The position numbers were made by a program, and so were the translations under genes. The notes below the pieces were generated by a model. It was not told the DNA's origin. It was given only the letters and a program-made list of their open reading frames with translations, and did not search any database. From Oceanibacterium hippocampi (lineage in GTDB: Bacteria; Pseudomonadota; Alphaproteobacteria; Sneathiellales; Sneathiellaceae), in assembly GCF_900172325.1 (NCBI RefSeq), contig NZ_FWFR01000001.1, positions 744,001-808,000 of the forward strand: a DNA stretch of 64,000 bases, read 5' to 3'. This document shows, in pieces, positions 39,166 to 49,968 of the stretch (the stretch's first letter is position 1; every line of letters starts with the position of its first letter).

Positions 39166-40119
39166 CTATTCCTCGTCGTCGTCGGCGGCGCGCGGTTCGC
39201 TGATCATCGTCCCGATGCCGTGCTCGGTGAATATCTCGAGCAGCAGTGCGTGCGGGATCTTGCCGTTCAGGACGTGCGCCGCGTCGACGCCGTGCTCGAC
39301 CGCGTAAAGGCAGGTCTCGAGCTTCGGGATCATGCCGCCGGAGATCACGCCGTCATCCTCGAGCTGGCTGATCTCGGCCGGCGTGAGATTGGGGATGAGC
39401 TGCTTGGCCTCGTCGAGGACGCCGATGACGTCGGTCATCATGATCAGCTTGCTGGCCCCGATCGCCGCGGCGATGTGACCGGCCGCGGTATCCGCGTTGA
39501 TGTTGTAGGTCTCGCCCTTGGTGCCGATGCCGATCGGCGCGATGACCGGGATCAGGCTGCTTTCGGCAAGGCTGATCAGGATTTCCGGATTGATCCGGAA
39601 GGGTTCGCCGACGAAGCCGAGATCGAGGATCCGCTCGATGTTGGAATCCGGGTCGCGCGCCGCGCGGCGAAGCTTGCGCGCCTCGATCAGGCGGCCGTCC
39701 TTGCCGGAAATGCCGACGGCGGTGCCGCCGGCGCCGTTGATCTCGGTCACGATCTGCTTGTTGATCGAGCCCGAAAGGACCATCTCGACGATCTCGACGG
39801 TTGCTTTGTCGGTGACCCGGAGGCCGTCGATGAACGAGCTCTGGATCTTCAGCCGCTCCAGCATCTTGCCGATCTGCGGCCCGCCGCCGTGCACGACGAC
39901 GGGGTTGATGCCGACCTGCTTCATCAGCGTGATGTCTTCGGCGAAGAAACGTCCCAGATCCTCGTCGCCCATGGCATGGCCACCGAACTTGACCACGAAG
40001 GTCTGCCCGGTGAAACGCCGCATGTAGGGCAGGGCCTCGGCGAGAATATGGGCCTTGGCCATCTGGTCCTTGTTGTAGGCGGGCAGGGCCCCGCCGTCGG
40101 TCGTCGGCTTGTCGTTCAT
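39166..40119 (-). CDS. argB: Acetylglutamate kinase
   Basis: ArgB phosphorylates N-acetylglutamate in arginine synthesis. The 317-residue product has the ATP loop [12 protein letters not shown] near residue 41, [14 protein letters not shown] near residue 73, and the kinase C-terminal [18 protein letters not shown]. The start ATG is at 40119. The short poly-acidic C-terminus (ADDDEE) is unusual but harmless. It lies about 20 bases downstream of engB in the rpmH-rnpA-yidD-yidC-engB-argB block. Confidence 0.95.
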
Positions 40120-40138
40120 GGCGGCTCTTATAGTTGAA

Positions 40139-40840
40139 TCACCCGGCTTCGGCCAGCGCCGCCAGTTCGGCGCGCAGGCTCTCGATGCCATGTCTGGTTT
40201 CCGAACTGGTGACGGCGATGTCGGGATGTGCCGCCGGTCGCTTGCGAAGCGAGGCCTCGACCGTCTCGCGCACCTGGGCGAGGGCCGACGCACCGACCTT
40301 GTCGGCCTTGGTCAGGACCACCTGGTAGACCACGGCCGCCTGGTCGAGCATCGTCATGACCTCGATGTCGGTCTCCTTCAGCCCATGCCGGCTGTCGACC
40401 AGGACGAGCACGCGGCGCAGCACCGGCCGGCCTTTGAGATAGAGACGGATCAGTTCCTGCCAGGCGCCGACCTTGGCCTTGGAGGCCTTGGCGTAGCCGT
40501 AGCCCGGCAGATCGACGAGGCGCATCCGGCCGCCGAGATCGAAGAAATTGATCTGCTGCGTGCGGCCCGGCGTCTGCGAGGTCCGGGCCAGGCTGCGCCG
40601 GCCGGTGAGCGCGTTCAGCAGGCTCGACTTGCCGACGTTCGAGCGTCCGGCGAAGGCGATCTCGATGATATCGGATGGCGGCAGGGCGGATTCGGTCGCG
40701 GCCCCGGCGACGAACTCGCAGGGGCCGGCGAAGAGCAGCCGCCCGGCTTCGAGGCGGGCGGTCTCGTTCGCTTCCGCGCCAGCCGGCTCGTCGGGGGTAC
40801 TCAGGTCTTTTTCACCTTCATGCGATGCATGATCAGCCAT
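40139..40840 (-). CDS. engB: Ribosome biogenesis GTPase EngB (YsxC/YihA)
   Basis: EngB is an essential GTPase for 50S assembly. The 233-residue product has G1 [14 protein letters not shown] near residue 65, G2 [15 protein letters not shown]3 DLPGYGYA and G4 LTKADKVG. The first 30 residues are an Asp/Glu/Ala-rich extension not seen in E. coli. The ATG at 40840 lies inside the end of yidC, giving a 40-base overlap in another frame; a shorter start without the extension is possible but no good internal start was found. It belongs to the block from rpmH to argB. Confidence 0.93.
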
Positions 40841-42537
40841 TGCTGGCCCATCGACAGCAGGTTGTTGCAGGTCCAGTAGATCACCAGGCCGGCCGGGAAG
40901 CTGGCCAGCAGGAAGGTGAACATGATCGGCATGATTAGGAAGATGCGGGCCTGCATCGGATCGACCGGCTGCGGGTTCAGCTTCTGCTGCAGGAACATCG
41001 AGACGCCCATCAGGAGCGGCCAGATGCCGAGATGCAGGAAGCTCGGGGCGTCCCAGGGGATCATTCCGAAGGCGGTGAAGATGTTGGTCGGATCGGGCGC
41101 CGAGAGATCCGAAATCCAGCCGTAGAAGGGCTGGTGACGCATCTCGATCGAGACGAACAGCACCTTGTAAAGGGCGAAGAAGACCGGGATCTGCAGCAGG
41201 ATCGGCAGGCAGCCGGAGGCCGGGTTGACCTTCTCCTTCTTGTAGAGCCCCATCATCTCCTGATTGAGCTTGGCGCGATCCTCGCCGTAGCGTTCGCGCA
41301 GCTTCATCATTTCCGGCTGCAGGTTCTTCATCTTGCTCATCGACACGTAGGATTTGTGCGCGAGCGGAAGGAAGACGATCTTGATCGCGATGACGAGGAT
41401 GATGATGGCGAGGCCGAAGTTGCCGACGACGCCGTAGATGTAATCGAGGGCGTAGAAGATCGGCTTGGTCAGGAAGTAGAACCAGCCCCAGTCGATCGCG
41501 AGGTCGAAGCGCTGGATGCCGAGGGAATCCTCGTAGCCCTCGAGGACGCCGACCTCCTTGGCACCGGCGAACAGCCGGTTGGTGGTCTCGGCGCTGGCCC
41601 CGGCGGGAACCGTTACCGCGTCCTTCAGATAGTCGGCCTGGAATTTCTCGCCGGCGGGGCTGTGCCGGAAGCTGCCCTCGAAATGCTCGCCCTGCGACGG
41701 CACGAGCGCGGTCAGCCAGTATTTGTCGGTGATCCCGAGCCAGCCGTCATTCGACGATTCGCGGACCCGGCCGTCCTCGGCGATGTCGTCGTACTTCTCT
41801 TCCAGCAGCTTCTCGTTGAACACCCCGAGGAAGCCTTCATGCAGGATGTAGAAGCCGACCGTCTTCGGCATGCCGTGCCGGGAGACGAGGCCGTAGGGAT
41901 AGAGCGTCACCGGCTCTTCCCCGTAGTTCACGACGCTGTCCTTGACGGTGAACATGTACTGCCGGTCGAGCGCCACGACGCGCTCGAAGCGCAGGCCCTC
42001 GCCGTTGTCCCAGGTGAGCTTGAGCGGCGAGGCCGGAGTGAGCGGGCCGCCCTCCGCCTGCCAGAGCGTGCGCGAGGTCGGTACCTTGACATCGCTGCCC
42101 GGTTCCGGTGTCCAGCCGAATTCGGCGTAGTAGGGATTGGCCGAGCCGACCGGGGAGAGCAGGGTGATCTCCGGGCTCTGCTTCTCGACGGTCACGTGGT
42201 AGTCGGCCAGCGTCAGATCGTCGATCCGCGCGCCCCGCAGGGCGATCGAGCCGTGCAGCCGGGGCGAATTGATGGCGACCCGGGGGCTGGCGGCCATCGC
42301 CGATTCCGCGGTCGCCGCCGGCGCCTCGGCGCTGCCCGAGGCGGGCGCGTCCGGACCGGGCTTCAGCGGGTCGCTCGTCGCCTCCGGGCCCGGGGTCTGC
42401 GTGCCGGAGGCCGCGAGCTGACGGGCCTGTTCGGCCTGCTGCTGCTCGGTCCGCGGTACTTCATAGAAGAACTGGAAGCCGAGCAGGATGGCAACGCTCA
42501 GGGCGATCGCAACGATCAGGTTTTTCTGATCCGACAT
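40801..42537 (-). CDS. yidC: Membrane protein insertase YidC
   Basis: YidC inserts proteins into the inner membrane with or without SecYEG. The 578-residue product has an N-terminal helix (NLIVAIALSVAILLGFQFFY), a Pro/Ala-rich linker, a large periplasmic domain (about residues 90-340) and five conserved core helices (IFYALDYIYGVVGNFGLAIIILVIAIKIV onward). The conserved region KEKVNPASGCLPILLQIPVFFALYKVLF is present. It follows yidD and rnpA in normal order, and engB starts within its last 40 bases. Confidence 0.96.
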   Translation of the reverse strand: MSDQKNLIVAIALSVAILLGFQFFYEVPRTEQQQAEQARQLAASGTQTPGPEATSDPLKPGPDAPASGSAEAPAATAESAMAASPRVAINSPRLHGSIALRGARIDDLTLADYHVTVEKQSPEITLLSPVGSANPYYAEFGWTPEPGSDVKVPTSRTLWQAEGGPLTPASPLKLTWDNGEGLRFERVVALDRQYMFTVKDSVVNYGEEPVTLYPYGLVSRHGMPKTVGFYILHEGFLGVFNEKLLEEKYDDIAEDGRVRESSNDGWLGITDKYWLTALVPSQGEHFEGSFRHSPAGEKFQADYLKDAVTVPAGASAETTNRLFAGAKEVGVLEGYEDSLGIQRFDLAIDWGWFYFLTKPIFYALDYIYGVVGNFGLAIIILVIAIKIVFLPLAHKSYVSMSKMKNLQPEMMKLRERYGEDRAKLNQEMMGLYKKEKVNPASGCLPILLQIPVFFALYKVLFVSIEMRHQPFYGWISDLSAPDPTNIFTAFGMIPWDAPSFLHLGIWPLLMGVSMFLQQKLNPQPVDPMQARIFLIMPIMFTFLLASFPAGLVIYWTCNNLLSMGQQWLIMHRMKVKKT

Positions 42538-42561: not shown

Positions 42562-42840
42562 TCAGGCCGTCAGGTCGCGCGCGCTGGTGGCGTCGCGGCC
42601 GACAGTGCCGTGGTCGAGGGATTCGGGTACCGGGTCGCAGCCATGGCCGCCGAACGGGTTGCAGCGCAGGATCCGGCGTGTCGCCAGCCAGCCGCCGCGC
42701 AGCGGACCATGCCGTTCGATGGCTTCCGCGGCATAGGCCGAGCAACTCGGGTGATAGCGACAGGAGCCCGCCATATAGGGAGAGATGCAGTAACGGTAGA
42801 ACGCGATCAGGGCCTGCAGGAAGACAGCGACGATCTTCAT
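42562..42840 (-). CDS. yidD: Membrane protein insertion efficiency factor YidD
   Basis: YidD is a small amphipathic peripheral membrane protein that helps insertion by YidC. The 92-residue product has the family pattern [31 protein letters not shown] with conserved cysteines. Its ATG overlaps the rnpA stop by four bases, so the two are coupled. The C-terminal 20 residues are divergent. It is placed between rnpA and yidC as usual. Confidence 0.94.
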
Positions 42841-43610: not shown

Positions 43611-44534
43611 ATGGGAATTCAAGGATGCGGGCGGACCGGGTGGGCCTCGAAACGATGCCTTTCCGAATCGACGCTGGCGCTGTCTCTGCTGCTGCTTGTG
43701 TCCCTGGTGGCCGCACCGGCCGGTGCGGCGCCCGCGGCGGAACCCTGGCCGCGCTGGGAACGGCACGACCCGGACTCCACGGCGACTGTGGATCATGACG
43801 CCTGGGACGATCTTCTCGACCGTTACCTGGGCGCCGAGCAAGACGGACTGCGGCGTTTCGACTATGGCGCGGTCAGCGCGGCCGACCGGGCCCGGCTGGA
43901 CGGATACCTCGGGGCCCTCCAGGGCATCGCGATTTCCGGGTTCAACCGGGCCGAGCAGATGGCCTACTGGATCAATCTTTACAACGCGCTGACGGTGAAG
44001 GTCGTGCTCGATCACTATCCGGTCGCCACGATCCGCGATATCGACATTTCCCCGGGCCTTTTCTCGAACGGCCCCTGGGACGCCGCGTTGGCCACGGTGG
44101 AAGGACAGGAACTGACCCTGAACGATATCGAACATCGAATCCTGCGGCCGATCCTCCGCGATCCCCGCGTCCATTACGCGGTCAACTGCGCGTCGGTGGG
44201 CTGCCCGTCGCTGGCGCCGCGAGCCTGGCGGGGCTCGGCGCTCGACAGGATGTTCGACGAGGCCGCCGCCGCCTACGTGAACTCCAGCCGCGGCATCCGC
44301 GCGGTGGCGGGCGGCATCGAGGTGTCGCGAATCTATGACTGGTACCGGGACGACTTCCCGCCGGGCGAAGCGGGCCTGCTTGGGCATTTCAGGCGCCACG
44401 CGAAGGCGCCCCTGGCCGGGCTGCTCGCCGAGCGGCCGACGATCGAGGGCCATTTCTACGACTGGTCGCTGAACGGAATCACCGGCCCGGACGCCGGTAC
44501 CAAGAATGGAGGGTCGGTTGACGGCCAACGATAA
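43611..44534 (+). CDS. Secreted DUF547 protein
   Basis: The exact function is unknown. The 307-residue product has a signal peptide (LALSLLLLVSLVAAPAGAAPA, ending near residue 41) and a DUF547 domain (about residues 85-215). The conserved segments are QMAYWINLYNALTVKVVLDHYP and HYAVNCASVGCPSLAPRAW, the latter with the family's paired cysteines. Related proteins are sometimes compared with transglutaminase or thiol-protease folds. The ATG at 43611 has AGGGA upstream. The last codons overlap the next gene by 17 bases, so it is the first member of the DUF547-TVP38-disulfide reductase operon. The protein should act in the periplasm. Confidence 0.85.
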   Translation: MGIQGCGRTGWASKRCLSESTLALSLLLLVSLVAAPAGAAPAAEPWPRWERHDPDSTATVDHDAWDDLLDRYLGAEQDGLRRFDYGAVSAADRARLDGYLGALQGIAISGFNRAEQMAYWINLYNALTVKVVLDHYPVATIRDIDISPGLFSNGPWDAALATVEGQELTLNDIEHRILRPILRDPRVHYAVNCASVGCPSLAPRAWRGSALDRMFDEAAAAYVNSSRGIRAVAGGIEVSRIYDWYRDDFPPGEAGLLGHFRRHAKAPLAGLLAERPTIEGHFYDWSLNGITGPDAGTKNGGSVDGQR

Positions 44535-45321
44535 CCTGTCCCGCCAGCCGGCATCCTGGGCGCGCCGCCTGTGGGCCCCGGCGCTGCTCGTCCTGGCCTT
44601 CGCCGCGGTTTTTGCCCTCGGCCTTGACGATTATCTGTCGTTCCGGGCGCTTTCGGACCATCGCGACCAGTTGAAGACCTTCGTCGACAACCATTTCGTG
44701 GCCGGGTTGCTGATCTATGCCGGACTTTACGCGGTGGCGGTGGCGCTCTCGCTGCCGGGCGGACTGCTGCTGACCGTGTCCGGCGGCTTCCTCTTCGGCT
44801 GGTTCGCGGCGGGCTCGGTCACCGTGCTCGCGGCCACGGTCGGCGCCACGGCGATCTTCCTGATCGCCCGGACCTCGCTTGGCGAGCCGCTGCGTGCGCG
44901 CGCCGGCAACACCCTGAAGCGGCTCGAGGCGGGCTTCCGCGAGGATGCGATGCATTACCTGCTGTTTCTCCGGCTGGTCCCGCTCTTCCCCTTCTGGCTG
45001 GTCAATATCGCGCCGGCGTTCCTCGGCGTCCGGCTGCGGACCTTCTTCCTGGCGACTCTCTTCGGGATACTCCCGGGCACGTTCGTTTTCGCGTTCCTCG
45101 GAACCGGGCTCGACAGCGTCATCCGCGAACAGCAGGCCGCGCACCAGGCGTGCCTGGACACCCACGCGGCGGACGGCGCATCGGCGGCGGCCACGGCCTG
45201 CCCGTTTGATTTCGACCTCGGGGCGCTGGTCACATGGGAGATTCTGGTTGCCCTGGCCGGCCTCGGGGTGATCGCGCTACTACCGGTGATCTTCAAGAAA
45301 TTGCGGGCGCAGCGCGCCTGA
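44518..45321 (+). CDS. TVP38/TMEM64 (SNARE-associated/VTT domain) membrane protein
   Basis: This is an inner-membrane protein of the VTT/DedA-related group, which is linked in various bacteria to lipid scrambling, selenite or metal handling. The 267-residue product has an N-terminal helix, then the VTT core with LSLPGGLLLTVSGGFLFGWFAAG and FLRLVPLFPFWLVNIAPAFLGV. A periplasmic loop near residue 210 carries two cysteines, and a last helix follows. A TTG at 44518 preceded by GGAGGG was chosen; an ATG at 44506 has no ribosome site. It overlaps the DUF547 gene and is followed after 18 bases by a disulfide reductase. Fusions of TVP38 and MerA-like domains are known in other bacteria. Confidence 0.85.
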   Translation: MTANDNLSRQPASWARRLWAPALLVLAFAAVFALGLDDYLSFRALSDHRDQLKTFVDNHFVAGLLIYAGLYAVAVALSLPGGLLLTVSGGFLFGWFAAGSVTVLAATVGATAIFLIARTSLGEPLRARAGNTLKRLEAGFREDAMHYLLFLRLVPLFPFWLVNIAPAFLGVRLRTFFLATLFGILPGTFVFAFLGTGLDSVIREQQAAHQACLDTHAADGASAAATACPFDFDLGALVTWEILVALAGLGVIALLPVIFKKLRAQRA

Positions 45322-45339
45322 TCTGGGCAGGGTGACAGG

Positions 45340-46758
45340 ATGAACGAACGCATCGAAGCCGATATCTGCGTGATCGGCGGAGGCTCCGGCGGGCTCACCG
45401 TCGCAGCCGGCGCGAGCCAGATGGGCGCCAGTGTCGTGCTTATCGAACGCGGCGAGATGGGCGGCGACTGCCTGAACTACGGCTGTGTTCCCTCGAAGGC
45501 GCTGCTGTCGAGCGCCAAGGCTGCCTATCGGCGGCACGGTCTGACGCCGGAAGAAGGCGCCGCGCGCGCGGAATTCGGCAACGCGATGCGCCATGTGCAG
45601 TCGGCCATAGCGGCGATACAGCCGATGGATTCGGTCGAGCGTTACGAGGGTCTCGGCGTGCGGGTGATCGCGGAGTCCGCCCGATTCACAGGTCCGACCA
45701 GCATCGTGGCCGGCGATTACCGGATCGACGCCCGGCGTTTCGTCGTTGCCACCGGATCGCGGGCCGGGCTGCCGCCGATCCCGGGGCTCGATACGGTGCC
45801 TTATCTGACCAACGAGACCCTGTTCCGGAACACGGTCCTGCCGACCCACCTGATCGTCGTCGGTGCGGGGCCGATCGGCCTCGAGATGGCCCAGGCGCAT
45901 CGGCGACTGGGCGCGCGGGTGACCGTGCTCGAAGCCTACCGGGCGCTCGCCAAGGACGACCGGGAACTGGCTGCCATCGTCATCGACCGGCTGCGCGGCG
46001 AGGGCATCGAGATCGTCGAGGGTGCCGAGATCACCGGCGTGAAGTCGCGCGACGGCATCGTGGTCACGCTGGCCGGCAAGGGCGGCGGCGACCCGCGCGA
46101 GATCCGCGGCAGCCATCTCCTGGTCGCCGCCGGACGTCGACCCAACGTCGACGGTCTCGACCTCGAGAAGGCCGGCATCGAGTACGACAAGGGCGGGATC
46201 AGCGTCGACCGCCGGATGCGCACCACCAACCGCAAGGTCTTTGCCGTGGGCGACGTCGCGGGCGGGCCGCAGTTCACCCATGTCGCGGGCTACCAGGCGG
46301 GCATCGTGATCCGGAACGCGCTGTTCCGGCTGCCCGCCAAGGTCGATTACGCGGCGCTGCCCTGGGTCACTTTCACCGATCCGGAGCTCGCCCAGGTCGG
46401 CCTCGCGGAGGATGCGGCACGGGAGCGCCATGGCCGCATCAGCATCCTGCGCTGGCCCTATGCGGAGAACGACCGGGCCCAGACCGAGGGCCTGACCGAC
46501 GGGCTGATCAAGGTGATCGTCGGCCGCCGCGGGCGGATCCTCGGCGCCTCGATCGTCGGTGCGCAGGCCGGCGAGCTCATCCAGCCCTGGGGCCTTGCCA
46601 TCGCCAACGGGCTGAAGATCGGCGCGATGGCCGGTGCGATGGTCGCCTATCCGACGCTCGGCGAGATCAGCAAGCGCGCTGCCGGCAGCTACTATACCCC
46701 GTCGCTGTTCAGCAACCGGACGCGGGCGCTGGTCCGTTTCCTCGCCCGCTTTGGCTGA
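45340..46758 (+). CDS. FAD-dependent disulfide oxidoreductase, mercuric reductase-like
   Basis: This is a cytoplasmic flavoenzyme. The 472-residue product has the FAD motif ICVIGGGSGGLTVAAGAS (residues 9-26), redox-active Cys44 and Cys49 in GGDCLNYGCVPSK, an NAD(P)H motif VVGAGPIGLEMAQ near residue 175, and a dimerisation domain. At the C-terminal catalytic position it has AYPTLGE rather than the HPTLSE of dihydrolipoamide dehydrogenase, so it is closer to MerA-type enzymes. There is no N-terminal HMA domain and no vicinal C-terminal cysteines as in true MerA, so mercury reduction is doubtful. It is the third gene of the DUF547-TVP38 operon. Quinone, thiol or metal substrates are possible. 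Confidence 0.88.
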   Translation: MNERIEADICVIGGGSGGLTVAAGASQMGASVVLIERGEMGGDCLNYGCVPSKALLSSAKAAYRRHGLTPEEGAARAEFGNAMRHVQSAIAAIQPMDSVERYEGLGVRVIAESARFTGPTSIVAGDYRIDARRFVVATGSRAGLPPIPGLDTVPYLTNETLFRNTVLPTHLIVVGAGPIGLEMAQAHRRLGARVTVLEAYRALAKDDRELAAIVIDRLRGEGIEIVEGAEITGVKSRDGIVVTLAGKGGGDPREIRGSHLLVAAGRRPNVDGLDLEKAGIEYDKGGISVDRRMRTTNRKVFAVGDVAGGPQFTHVAGYQAGIVIRNALFRLPAKVDYAALPWVTFTDPELAQVGLAEDAARERHGRISILRWPYAENDRAQTEGLTDGLIKVIVGRRGRILGASIVGAQAGELIQPWGLAIANGLKIGAMAGAMVAYPTLGEISKRAAGSYYTPSLFSNRTRALVRFLARFG

Positions 46759-46883
46759 GCGGGCGCGTCACAGGGTCGTGATGCGAGTTGATTCGCGTGC
46801 CTTGCGCCCCGGTTCCATGTTGGAAGCGGCAATGCGAACCCGCATCCGCCCTGCGAACGACATGAGCTACTGGAGGCTTCACA

Positions 46884-47135
46884 ATGCTCAAGGAACTGAT
46901 GACTGCGGCCGCGATCTCGGCTCTGGCAAGCGCTGCCATCGTGCCGACGGCGATCGCCGCCTGCGCGCCGACCAAGAAGGCCGCCTGCAATCCCTGCGCC
47001 GCGAAGGCCTGCAATCCGTGCGCGGCGAAAGCCTGCAATCCCTGCGCGGCAAAGGCCTGCAACCCCTGCGCTGCGAAGAATCCGTGCGCCGCGAAGGCGT
47101 GCAATCCGTGTGCCGCGAAAAAGACGACCGACTGA
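46884..47135 (+). CDS. Secreted cysteine-rich protein of tandem CNPCAAK repeats
   Basis: This 83-residue protein has a signal peptide (residues 1-26, AAAISALASAAIVPTAIAA) followed almost entirely by repeats of ACNPCAAK: four full copies, one shortened NPCAAK and one more full copy. There are twelve cysteines in the mature part. Similar CNPC-repeat proteins exist in proteobacteria, but no function is firmly known to me. The regular CxxC spacing suggests metal or redox chemistry in the periplasm. TGGAGG stands before the ATG. It has its own terminator and sits 125 bases after the disulfide reductase. Confidence 0.85.
   Translation: MLKELMTAAAISALASAAIVPTAIAACAPTKKAACNPCAAKACNPCAAKACNPCAAKACNPCAAKNPCAAKACNPCAAKKTTD
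46983..47120 (+). repeat. Tandem 24-base repeats inside the CNPC gene
   Basis: Unit boundaries are 46983-47006, 47007-47030, 47031-47054, 47055-47078, a shortened 18-base unit 47079-47096, and 47097-47120. Units differ only at a few, mostly third-codon, positions. The array is likely to gain or lose copies by slippage or recombination without shifting the reading frame. Confidence 0.92.
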
Positions 47136-47182: not shown

Positions 47183-47221
47183 CGGAACCCGGCGTCTGCA
47201 ATGGCGCCGGGTTCCGATTTT
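47183..47221 (+). terminator. Terminator after the CNPC gene
   Basis: CGGAACCCGGCG (47183-47194) pairs perfectly with CGCCGGGTTCCG (47205-47216) around a 10-base loop, followed by ATTTT. It ends 15 bases before the histidine kinase start, so the kinase likely depends on readthrough or a promoter within this short gap. Confidence 0.8.
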
Positions 47222-47236
47222 CGCTAACGTGGCGCG

Positions 47237-48661
47237 ATGTCGAGCCCCCTACGCGCCATGCCCGTCGCGGCGGACAGCCTTTCAGCCCGACTGCTTGTCC
47301 TGACCGTCGCGTTCGTGATGCTGAGCGAAGTCCTGATCTTCGTTCCATCGGTCGCCTTCTTCCGGGTCAATTACCTGGAGAAGATGGTCGAATCGGCGCA
47401 TCTCGCGTCGCTGACGCTGATTTCCTCGCCCGACTACATGATCAGCGAGGCGCTGAAAGAGGAGCTCCTGGCCGCGATCGGCGCCCGCGCCATTGCCTTC
47501 AAGAGCCCGAATACCCGCTCGCTGATCCTCAGCGAGGCAATGCCGCCGAAAGTCGATGCCCGCTTCGATCTCGAGGAGCGCAGCCCGCTGACCCTGATGG
47601 CGGACGCGCTCGCCACCCTGATGATGCCGGACGGCAGGATCATCGAGGTCAGCGGACCGATCGCGCAGAATCCGAATGCCTCGATCGAGGTGCTGATGGA
47701 CGAGACGCCGTTGCGCGCCTCGATGCTCGGCTATGCCTGGAACATCCTGCAGCTCTCGGTGATCATCTCGCTGCTCACCGCGACGCTGGTCTACCTGGCC
47801 CTGCAATGGATGATGGTCCGGCCGATGCGACAGTTGACCGCCAGCATGGTCGCCTTCCGGCGCGAGCCGGAGAACGCGTCCCGGGTCGTCGAGGCAACGC
47901 GCCGCCGGGACGAGATCGGCGTCGCCGAGCGGGAATTGCGCGAGATGCAGATCGGGCTTCGCCAGGCGCTCCACCAGAAAACCCATCTCGCGGCGCTCGG
48001 CGCGGCGATGACCAAGGTCAACCATGATCTCCGCAACATGCTGGCGGCGGCGCAGATCCTCTCGGACCGGCTGAGCCAGAGCAGCGACCCGGAGGTCACG
48101 CGCCTTGTGCCCCGGCTGTTCTCCAGCATCGACCGGGCAATCGACCTTTGCACCTCGACGCTGCGTTACGGGCGCGCGGTCGAGCCGGAACCGAAGGCAA
48201 GCTGGTTCCCGCTGCTCGGGCTGCTGCACGAGGTCGAGGGCGCGGCGGGATTGCCGGCGGAGGGCGCCAGCGGCTGGCAACTCGACGTTCCAGCGGATCT
48301 CGCGGTTCATGCCGACCGGGAACAGCTGTTCCGGGTCTTTCTCAATCTCGGACGGAACGCAGTCGAAGCGCTCGGCGAGGGCGGCCGGATCTGTGTGGAA
48401 GCGCGTCCCGTCGGCGACATGCTTGTCATTGAATTCGCCGATAACGGTCCGGGCCTGCCGCAACGTGCCCGGGACCATCTGTTCGAGCCGTTCGCCGGTT
48501 CGACCCGTGCTGGCGGCACCGGCCTCGGCCTGTCGATCGCGCGCGAGCTGCTGCAGGCCCATGGCGGGGCGATCGAGCTCGCCCGGAGCGATGCATCCGG
48601 TACGGTATTCCGGATCACGTTGCCCATGCGGAAACTGCGTCGGGTCGAAACGGCGGCGTAA
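47237..48661 (+). CDS. Orphan membrane sensor histidine kinase
   Basis: This is an inner-membrane sensor that autophosphorylates on a histidine. The 474-residue product has a first helix (LLVLTVAFVMLSEVLIFVPSVAFF), a periplasmic sensor region (about residues 45-165), a second helix (ILQLSVIISLLTATLVYLAL), a HAMP segment, an H-box (TKVNHDLRNMLAA) and catalytic N (NLGRNAVEAL), G1 (DNGPGLP) and G2 (GGTGLGLSIARELL) boxes. All kinase boxes are intact. No response regulator is adjacent, so its partner is elsewhere. The H-box form NHDLRN is typical of the HPK4-like group. The start ribosome site is weak. Confidence 0.9.
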   Translation: MSSPLRAMPVAADSLSARLLVLTVAFVMLSEVLIFVPSVAFFRVNYLEKMVESAHLASLTLISSPDYMISEALKEELLAAIGARAIAFKSPNTRSLILSEAMPPKVDARFDLEERSPLTLMADALATLMMPDGRIIEVSGPIAQNPNASIEVLMDETPLRASMLGYAWNILQLSVIISLLTATLVYLALQWMMVRPMRQLTASMVAFRREPENASRVVEATRRRDEIGVAERELREMQIGLRQALHQKTHLAALGAAMTKVNHDLRNMLAAAQILSDRLSQSSDPEVTRLVPRLFSSIDRAIDLCTSTLRYGRAVEPEPKASWFPLLGLLHEVEGAAGLPAEGASGWQLDVPADLAVHADREQLFRVFLNLGRNAVEALGEGGRICVEARPVGDMLVIEFADNGPGLPQRARDHLFEPFAGSTRAGGTGLGLSIARELLQAHGGAIELARSDASGTVFRITLPMRKLRRVETAA

Positions 48662-49200: not shown

Positions 49201-49968
49201 ATGACCTGGGATCCCGCCACCTACCTGCAATTCGCCGACCAGCGCCTGCGCCCCGCGATCGACCTGATGGCACGCATCGACCTCAGCCGGCCGATGCTCA
49301 TCTACGATCTCGGTTGCGGTGCGGGCAATGTCACGAGCCTGCTCCGCGAACGCTGGCGCGAGGCGGTCATCACCGGCGTCGATTCCTCGGCGGAAATGCT
49401 GAAGGCCGCCGCCGACAGCCATCACGGCATCGAGTGGCGGCAGGCCGACATCGCCAGCTTCAGCCCGACCGATCGCGCCGAGCTGATCTTCTCGAATGCC
49501 GCCCTGCACTGGCTCGGCGACCATGAGACGCTGTTCCCGCGTCTGCTCGGCCTGGCCGCGCGGGACGGCATGCTCGCCGTCCAGATGCCGGACAATTTCG
49601 ACCAGCCGTCCCATGTCGCCCTCGCCGAAACGGCGGAGGATCGGCGCTGGCGGGACAAGCTTGCCCACCTGATCCGCCCGGCCCCGGTGCATGGCGCGGA
49701 ATTCTACCGTTCCTGCCTCGGCCCGCAGGCCAGCGATGTCGATGTCTGGCGGACCACCTATTATCACGAGATGGAGGGTGAGGACCCGGTCTACCGCTGG
49801 ACGTCGGGGACCGCGCTCAGGCCCTTTCTCGCCCCGCTTGACGAAACCGAGAAGGCATCCTTCGTCGAGATCTACAAGGCGCGCCTGCGCGAGGCCTATC
49901 GCCCTGCCGCGGACGGGCGGATGCTGTTTCCGTTCCGCCGGCTCTTCATCGTCGCCCGCCGCGCCTGA
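49201..49968 (+). CDS. tam: Trans-aconitate 2-methyltransferase
   Basis: Tam methylates trans-aconitate, a by-product that inhibits aconitase, using SAM. The 255-residue product has the start WDPATYLQFADQRLRPAIDLMARI typical of Tam, the SAM loop YDLGCGAGNVTSLL near residue 38, and NAALHWLGDHE in the middle. The start motif separates it from other class I methyltransferases. The length is normal. It is followed after 18 bases by the SAM-hydrolase family gene, so both may be co-transcribed. Confidence 0.88.
   Translation: MTWDPATYLQFADQRLRPAIDLMARIDLSRPMLIYDLGCGAGNVTSLLRERWREAVITGVDSSAEMLKAAADSHHGIEWRQADIASFSPTDRAELIFSNAALHWLGDHETLFPRLLGLAARDGMLAVQMPDNFDQPSHVALAETAEDRRWRDKLAHLIRPAPVHGAEFYRSCLGPQASDVDVWRTTYYHEMEGEDPVYRWTSGTALRPFLAPLDETEKASFVEIYKARLREAYRPAADGRMLFPFRRLFIVARRA

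Follow-up and report, generated by a model that had tools for sequence, protein, structure and literature searches.

The stretch analyzed here, 64,000 nucleotides of the alphaproteobacterium Oceanibacterium hippocampi (contig NZ_FWFR01000001.1, positions 744,001 to 808,000; hereafter ‘the window’), harbors a gene block with a VTT/TVP38 membrane protein, a MerA-like flavin disulfide reductase and an orphan histidine kinase at its core, divergent from yidD-yidC-engB-argB. An original prediction, made from the sequence alone, had singled out four genes—encoding a DUF547 protein, the VTT protein, the MerA-like enzyme and a CNPC-repeat protein—as a candidate envelope thiol/metal module. All four lie at the places and on the strands it gave, and the Pfam families of the first three were confirmed; the kinase, which is the commonest further partner of the block in relatives, had been omitted. 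The block is both larger and more modular than described there. Its features are as follows (positions within the window).

40801–42537, minus strand: yidC, named by eye from its translation; anchor gene on the divergent side.
yidC side: yidD (42562–42840), engB (40139–40840) and argB (39166–40293), named by eye from their translations.
43611–44534, plus strand: DUF547 secreted protein (PF04784, 82.6 bits against a cut-off of 27); optional member.
44518–45321, plus strand: VTT/TVP38 (COG0398-type) membrane protein (PF09335, 73.6 bits against a cut-off of 33.9); core member.
45340–46758, plus strand: MerA-like NAD(P)H flavin disulfide reductase (Pyr_redox_2 and dimerization domain in Pfam); core member.
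46884–47135, plus strand: small, putatively secreted CNPC-repeat protein with 12 cysteines (profile and motif count); optional member, upstream of the kinase.
47183–47216, plus strand: intrinsic-terminator-like stem of 14 pairs, 3′ of the CNPC gene.
47237–48661, plus strand: orphan membrane histidine kinase (HATPase_c in Pfam); core member.
49201–49968, plus strand: S-adenosylmethionine-dependent methyltransferase (Pfam); frequent further neighbor.

The predicted 17-base overlap between the DUF547 and VTT genes holds if VTT starts at the TTG at 44518, directly after GGAGGG; an alternative in-frame ATG at 44506 would give an overlap of 29 bases. The gap of 18 bases between VTT and MerA is as claimed, and the CNPC gene begins 125 bases past the end of the MerA-like gene. 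The stem at 47183–47216 is one of four terminator-like stems in the window, compared with a mean of 2.5 in shuffled sequences. The cysteine counts were likewise accurate: ten of the twelve in the CNPC protein fall within five CNPC motifs, and the other two belong to a single NPC and to position 27; the paired cysteines of the DUF547 protein are C193 and C198 (C6 and C16 lie before or in the signal region); and the two loop cysteines of the VTT protein are C216 and C232.

We next mapped the neighborhood across 289 alphaproteobacterial genomes, the search set used throughout. The MerA-like enzyme was matched in 157 of them at E 1e-100 or better, and 142 genomes had one kinase match each, with an E value of 1e-70 or lower. 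Neighbors were counted in 121 loci, that is, stretches fetched around the best-scoring MerA-like matches; these include the source genome’s second MerA copy, exclude the window’s own cluster and leave out the weakest matches, several second copies and unlisted ones. As some contigs are cut, absences in these loci may be artefacts. A VTT gene lay upstream of MerA in 96 loci, the kinase downstream of it in 82, and a yidC, yidD or engB relative within the fetched stretch in 79, with all three together in 65. Less frequent were the methyltransferase (27 loci), DUF547 (19) and CNPC within 1 kb downstream of MerA (9). Based on these counts, VTT-MerA-kinase forms the core, with DUF547 and CNPC as optional members. 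A Sinorhizobium meliloti record is annotated in the same order, with genes for TVP38, an oxidoreductase and a HAMP kinase diverging from yihA and yidC; elsewhere, including the second copy in the source genome, the order is reversed to MerA-VTT.

The survey thus bore out one part of the original prediction, in that the gene associations recur across genomes beyond chance, most tightly that of VTT with MerA. Its fixed four-part arrangement did not stand: among the CNPC operons examined, three of which were viewed for 1.5 kb on each side, DUF547 accompanied CNPC only in the window and in one other genome (G051), and the complete four-gene set was seen in the window only, leading us to reject a fixed four-gene system. 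While the VTT-MerA pairing is already known, searches of open-licence papers turned up neither a DUF547-VTT-MerA or CNPC system nor a yidC-linked block with kinase and CNPC proteins.

Inspecting the flavoenzyme revealed both kinship with and distance from mercuric reductase. The window protein shares with mercuric reductase MerA its sequence family, the CxxxxC redox pair (C44/C49; present in all 141 MerA-like proteins) and a tyrosine where lipoamide dehydrogenase has its catalytic histidine (Tyr437 by alignment; tyrosine in 140 of the 141, and likewise in the aligned mercuric reductase). However, it scored 363.3 bits against the mercuric reductase model TIGR02053, below the cut-off of 454.45. 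Mercuric reductase MerA carries a C-terminal vicinal cysteine pair; the window enzyme, with cysteines at positions 10, 44 and 49 only, does not, and the last 30 residues of the MerA-like proteins hold no cysteine in 138 of 141 and a single one in the other three. No mer genes were recognized beside it. By these sequence features, the window reductase is MerA-like, but not MerA. The source genome has a second MerA-VTT pair (contig C16:1249414-1251401 and beyond; L119), preceded by a gene for a cupredoxin-like secreted protein.

The CNPC protein of the window starts with a signal-like segment, judged by eye in an alignment. A signal-like N-terminus is common to ten CNPC proteins of such blocks; in most of them the motif VQ(L/V)A(A/S)CNPC, or one very close to it, comes next. 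For the window protein, Pfam returned only a Cornifin match below cut-off, with no match to DUF2282 or in NCBIfam. A dedicated profile detected the family in 40 of the 289 genomes; context was taken from 30 loci, one per genome, and the remaining rows were compared with kinase matches by eye. By coordinates, 15 genomes from 12 family codes have a CNPC gene on the strand of the kinase gene and upstream of it; in 12 of the 15, the matched stretches are 113–257 bases apart. Five of the 20 held-out loci (outside the profile) had CNPC beside the kinase, versus 0.0065 expected (chance estimates assume random placement and independent places, some of which share a genus). MerA was also adjacent in ten of the 15 cases, VTT without MerA in two (G051, G031) and neither in three (G098, G195, G084), implying that CNPC tracks the kinase more closely than MerA. 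CNPC was not immediately beside the kinase in G289 (2.1 kb away, with an open reading frame between), G040 (1.3 kb) and G025 (cupredoxin-like gene between), and the G283 match runs through stop codons. When the CNPC trait is placed on a quick tree of 122 MerA sequences, it changes eight times for ten carriers, consistent with repeated loss or gain of CNPC at one address. The link between CNPC and the block is genuine, even though CNPC is optional. As to the kinase itself, its predicted model (predicted local distance difference test, pLDDT, 79.5; predicted template modeling score, pTM, 0.49) matches known kinases.

CNPC repeats also occur in cytochrome P460 proteins, where a signal-like segment likewise precedes CNPC/NPC repeats; unlike these, the window protein consists of repeats only and has no heme domain. 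The source genome encodes one such CNPC-P460 fusion (PF16694; L269:7274-8380, contig C16 ~2031273-2032379), L271 was likewise confirmed, and similar genes were noted by eye in L270, L276, L279, L282, L283 and L288. A DUF6969-type protein is often encoded near CNPC or CNPC-P460 genes (L270, L275, L276, L282, L283, L285, L286), and some of those CNPC loci also lie near a gene for an FGE-sulfatase-like protein; one DUF6969 and one FGE assignment were confirmed by Pfam, the rest made by eye.

Within the 121 loci, DUF547 was found upstream of VTT in 14, after the kinase in three, after the methyltransferase in one and after MerA in one. Conversely, the best 80 of 455 DUF547 loci, collected with a profile based on four of the block’s own DUF547 genes, comprised 20 with VTT and MerA and four with the kinase but without VTT/MerA. 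DUF547 also stands directly 3′ of a VTT-MerA fusion on Acinetobacter and Catenovulum plasmids, directly after a fusion-sized gene annotated as FAD-dependent oxidoreductase in Pseudoalteromonas, and directly after unfused VTT-MerA in Roseomonas. Its link to VTT-MerA is therefore genuine, but not obligatory. C193 and C198 each occur in 98% of 69 DUF547 proteins, and the NCA...CP motif is present in the window protein; the pair appears to be a hallmark of the DUF547 family rather than a local adaptation. The predicted structure of the window protein is confident (pLDDT 92) and had no match in the PDB at E 0.001 or better, with a best VIA Z of 4.4 among re-aligned chains; this result establishes no function and does not make the fold a new one. 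In a literature search on DUF547 alone, most of the papers listed concern plants.

Fusions of VTT and MerA, cited in the original prediction as known from other bacteria, are documented both by plasmid annotations and in a published study, which describes COG0398 DedA/TVP38 proteins fused to a pyridine nucleotide-disulfide oxidoreductase (PMC10127716). NCBI names them ‘bifunctional TVP38/TMEM64 family protein/FAD-dependent oxidoreductase’. Fusion and window share both domains in the same order: the reductase part of the Acinetobacter fusion shows 36% identity over 465 aligned residues and keeps the CxxxxC pair and the tyrosine, and its VTT part shows 30% over 170. Unlike the fusion, the window has two separate genes, accompanied by the kinase, DUF547 and CNPC genes and located next to yidC.

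On Burkholderia glumae, Salmonella and Providencia plasmids, the fusion is the next gene after a DUF2282-DUF692-DNA-binding-DoxX operon, and on a Paracoccus aestuarii plasmid it lies three genes beyond one; for the Sphingopyxis and Paracoccus seriniphilus fusions, no bufferin-type operon was present in the stretch shown. Bufferins, encoded by operons of this DUF2282-DUF692 type, sequester periplasmic copper (PMC12452194), and gigPABT, of the same operon type, makes a small contribution to the copper resistance of Cupriavidus (PMC10304878). These operons resemble the window in that a small protein, there of the DUF2282 family and here CNPC, is encoded near VTT-MerA; they differ in that CNPC lacks a DUF2282 match and no MNIO, DUF2063 or DoxX gene was recognized in the block. 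The only MNIO gene of the source genome lies on another contig than the window. It lies in what by eye looks like a complete bufferin operon, apart from the CNPC gene (L342, C7 ~511487-514155), with a DUF2282-like open reading frame, DUF692/MNIO above cut-off, and DUF2063-like and DoxX-like genes (by eye). Two IncC plasmids typed as conjugative, from Salmonella (L344) and Providencia (L353), carry a bufferin-type operon, the VTT-MerA fusion, an ABC transporter and a CDP-alcohol phosphatidyltransferase. The terms TVP38, DedA, mercuric and DUF547 are absent from the main texts of the MNIO papers searched, and a Brucella copper transposon-sequencing paper contains none of the sought terms.

A different setting is offered by an Acinetobacter portensis plasmid, which carries an arsS-[VTT-MerA]-DUF547-TIGR04283-TIGR04282-methyltransferase cluster. 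As in the window, DUF547 is directly beside VTT-MerA, and the two DUF547 proteins are 31% identical; unlike in that cluster, neither ArsS nor TIGR04283 scores over its cut-off in the source genome.

A cupredoxin-like secreted protein, not encoded in the window, was found in 24 of the 289 genomes; profile search returned no solved relative. Its gene is next to MerA at 10 of 30 places (31 rows, one place being split in two), in three arrangements, and at four of the 20 held-out places, the other ten having entered the profile. It sits between MerA and kinase in G025 (with CNPC), G192 and G271, between VTT and MerA in G315, and upstream of MerA or MerA-VTT in the source genome’s second copy, twice in G084, and in G025, G312 and G031. 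In G002, G003, G077 and G139 it lies near CNPC genes away from the block. That the gene attaches at several positions favors function over an inherited gene order as the explanation. A plasmid search with the protein returned no match. In L193, a cupredoxin-like-MerA-VTT operon is followed, ~2 kb downstream, by a Rhodanese-ChrB_C gene and, by eye, a ChrA-like transporter (L193:10354-12479).

Given these observations, we tentatively read the block as the alphaproteobacterial chromosomal form of the VTT-MerA module, engaged in metal or thiol redox chemistry at the inner membrane and in the envelope, which we regard as possible though far from assured. The envelope thiol/metal role proposed originally receives partial support, in that cysteine-rich and cupredoxin-like partners recur and bufferin-type and arsS genes keep company with related VTT-MerA fusions; the cysteine relay and the fixed four-part set found no support, and the nearest constant partner of CNPC proved to be the kinase. 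The bufferin-type, arsS and ChrB/ChrA neighborhoods are associations, not functions. What is observed are the conserved neighborhoods, the accessory genes at several positions and the DUF2282 and arsS company of the fusions, from which we infer every biochemical step that follows. The cytoplasmic flavoenzyme would draw electrons from NAD(P)H, and its CxxxxC pair would reduce a substrate held or moved by VTT in the inner membrane. The two genes adjoin here and are fused elsewhere, and the physical coupling of their products, like the substrate, is conjectured. On the outer side, the secreted partners (CNPC repeats, cupredoxin-like protein, DUF547) may bind, buffer or process metal or thiol species, and the orphan kinase may sense this side and tune the response. 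Since CNPC is most directly the kinase’s neighbor, it may be a buffered signal as well as a buffer.

Several findings weigh against the metal/thiol reading. DUF547 and CNPC are each missing from most of the 121 clusters, and there are CNPC genes outside the block, some in fusion with cytochrome P460. MNIO was found in 15 of the 40 CNPC genomes and in 106 of the 249 others (Fisher p 0.61), and CNPC as an MNIO substrate was rejected on this lack of association. The kinase’s sensor segment is no richer in cysteine beside CNPC, with cysteine in 2 of 10 cases versus 15 of 94. The cupredoxin assignment is weak, the Cupredoxin_1 match reaching 16.9 bits at best against a cut-off of 27, in three of four proteins tried. 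Around stand-alone cupredoxin-like genes, inspection by eye—no family search was run on these neighbors—revealed no clear metal genes, except for a histidine-rich open reading frame in L332. In the source genome, the best ArsS score was 23.9 bits against a cut-off of 300, and TIGR04283 stayed below its cut-off.

The strongest rival, which we consider doubtful but serious, is lipid or quinone chemistry: VTT would scramble or present a lipid, the flavoenzyme would reduce a lipid-soluble acceptor, and the cysteine-rich neighbors would be loosely related. PMC10127716 describes eukaryotic COG0398 relatives as phospholipid scramblases and ties bacterial COG0398 proteins to aerobic metabolism. CDP-alcohol phosphatidyltransferase genes adjoin, or lie a few genes from, VTT-MerA fusions and one fusion-sized oxidoreductase gene, and the block adjoins yidC. 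Under this explanation, however, the attachment of CNPC, cupredoxin-like and bufferin-type genes would be coincidence.

It is also conceivable, though unlikely, that CNPC and the kinase form a separate envelope-stress signaling unit, with CNPC as a cysteine-rich secreted redox or metal signal, that merely shares an address with VTT-MerA. The five genomes in which CNPC keeps the kinase without an adjacent MerA would be explained in this way, as would the 125 bases that separate CNPC from MerA in the window. MerA is nonetheless adjacent in the majority of CNPC-kinase cases, and in other places VTT-MerA has links to different small secreted proteins where this kinase is absent. In the window itself, a terminator-like stem lies between the CNPC and kinase genes. 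A bolder version of the metal/thiol reading, in which the flavoenzyme acts via VTT on repeat-built, cysteine-rich periplasmic CNPC peptides as an MNIO-independent counterpart of copper bufferins, with a dedicated kinase monitoring the metal or redox state of the peptides, strikes us as rather unlikely.

Quite improbable, in our estimate, is an organo-metalloid role of the arsenosugar type, in which DUF547-VTT-MerA would process or export methylated arsenic or a related metabolite. The Acinetobacter portensis cluster and the resemblance of its DUF547 protein to that of the window speak for it, together with TIGR04282/TIGR04283 genes a few genes from the B. glumae fusion and, near VTT-MerA-DUF547 in Roseomonas, a TIGR04283-like gene (165 bits against a cut-off of 182). 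Yet a search of the source genome gave no ArsS and no TIGR04283 above cut-off, and an arsenosugar pathway in the source organism was rejected on these grounds.

Finally, the literal relay of the original prediction would have electrons hop from MerA via the VTT loop cysteines to those of DUF547 and CNPC. Two loop cysteines are found in 27 of 104 VTT proteins, none in 77 and a single one in no protein, and 26 of the 27 keep the window’s positions; this two-or-none pattern suggests a disulfide where the pair exists. The pair is also commoner beside an upstream DUF547 gene (8/13 versus 5/67; Fisher p 4e-5), but on the tree only three supported independent pairs lie behind this link, which common descent can therefore explain. 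Moreover, among the 11 CNPC operons whose VTT gene is complete, the loop lacks cysteines in nine and has two only in the window and L122. With the association failing on the tree, and with DUF547 missing from most blocks, we rejected the cysteine relay through VTT as exceedingly improbable.

COG0398 VTT proteins are widespread and reported as essential in two alphaproteobacteria, Caulobacter and Dinoroseobacter (PMC10127716). The block described here ties such a protein to a flavoenzyme, an orphan kinase and cysteine-rich or cupredoxin-like partners, offers candidate substrates and signals that can be tested directly, and connects chromosomal genes of alphaproteobacteria to plasmid-borne bufferin-type and arsS clusters.

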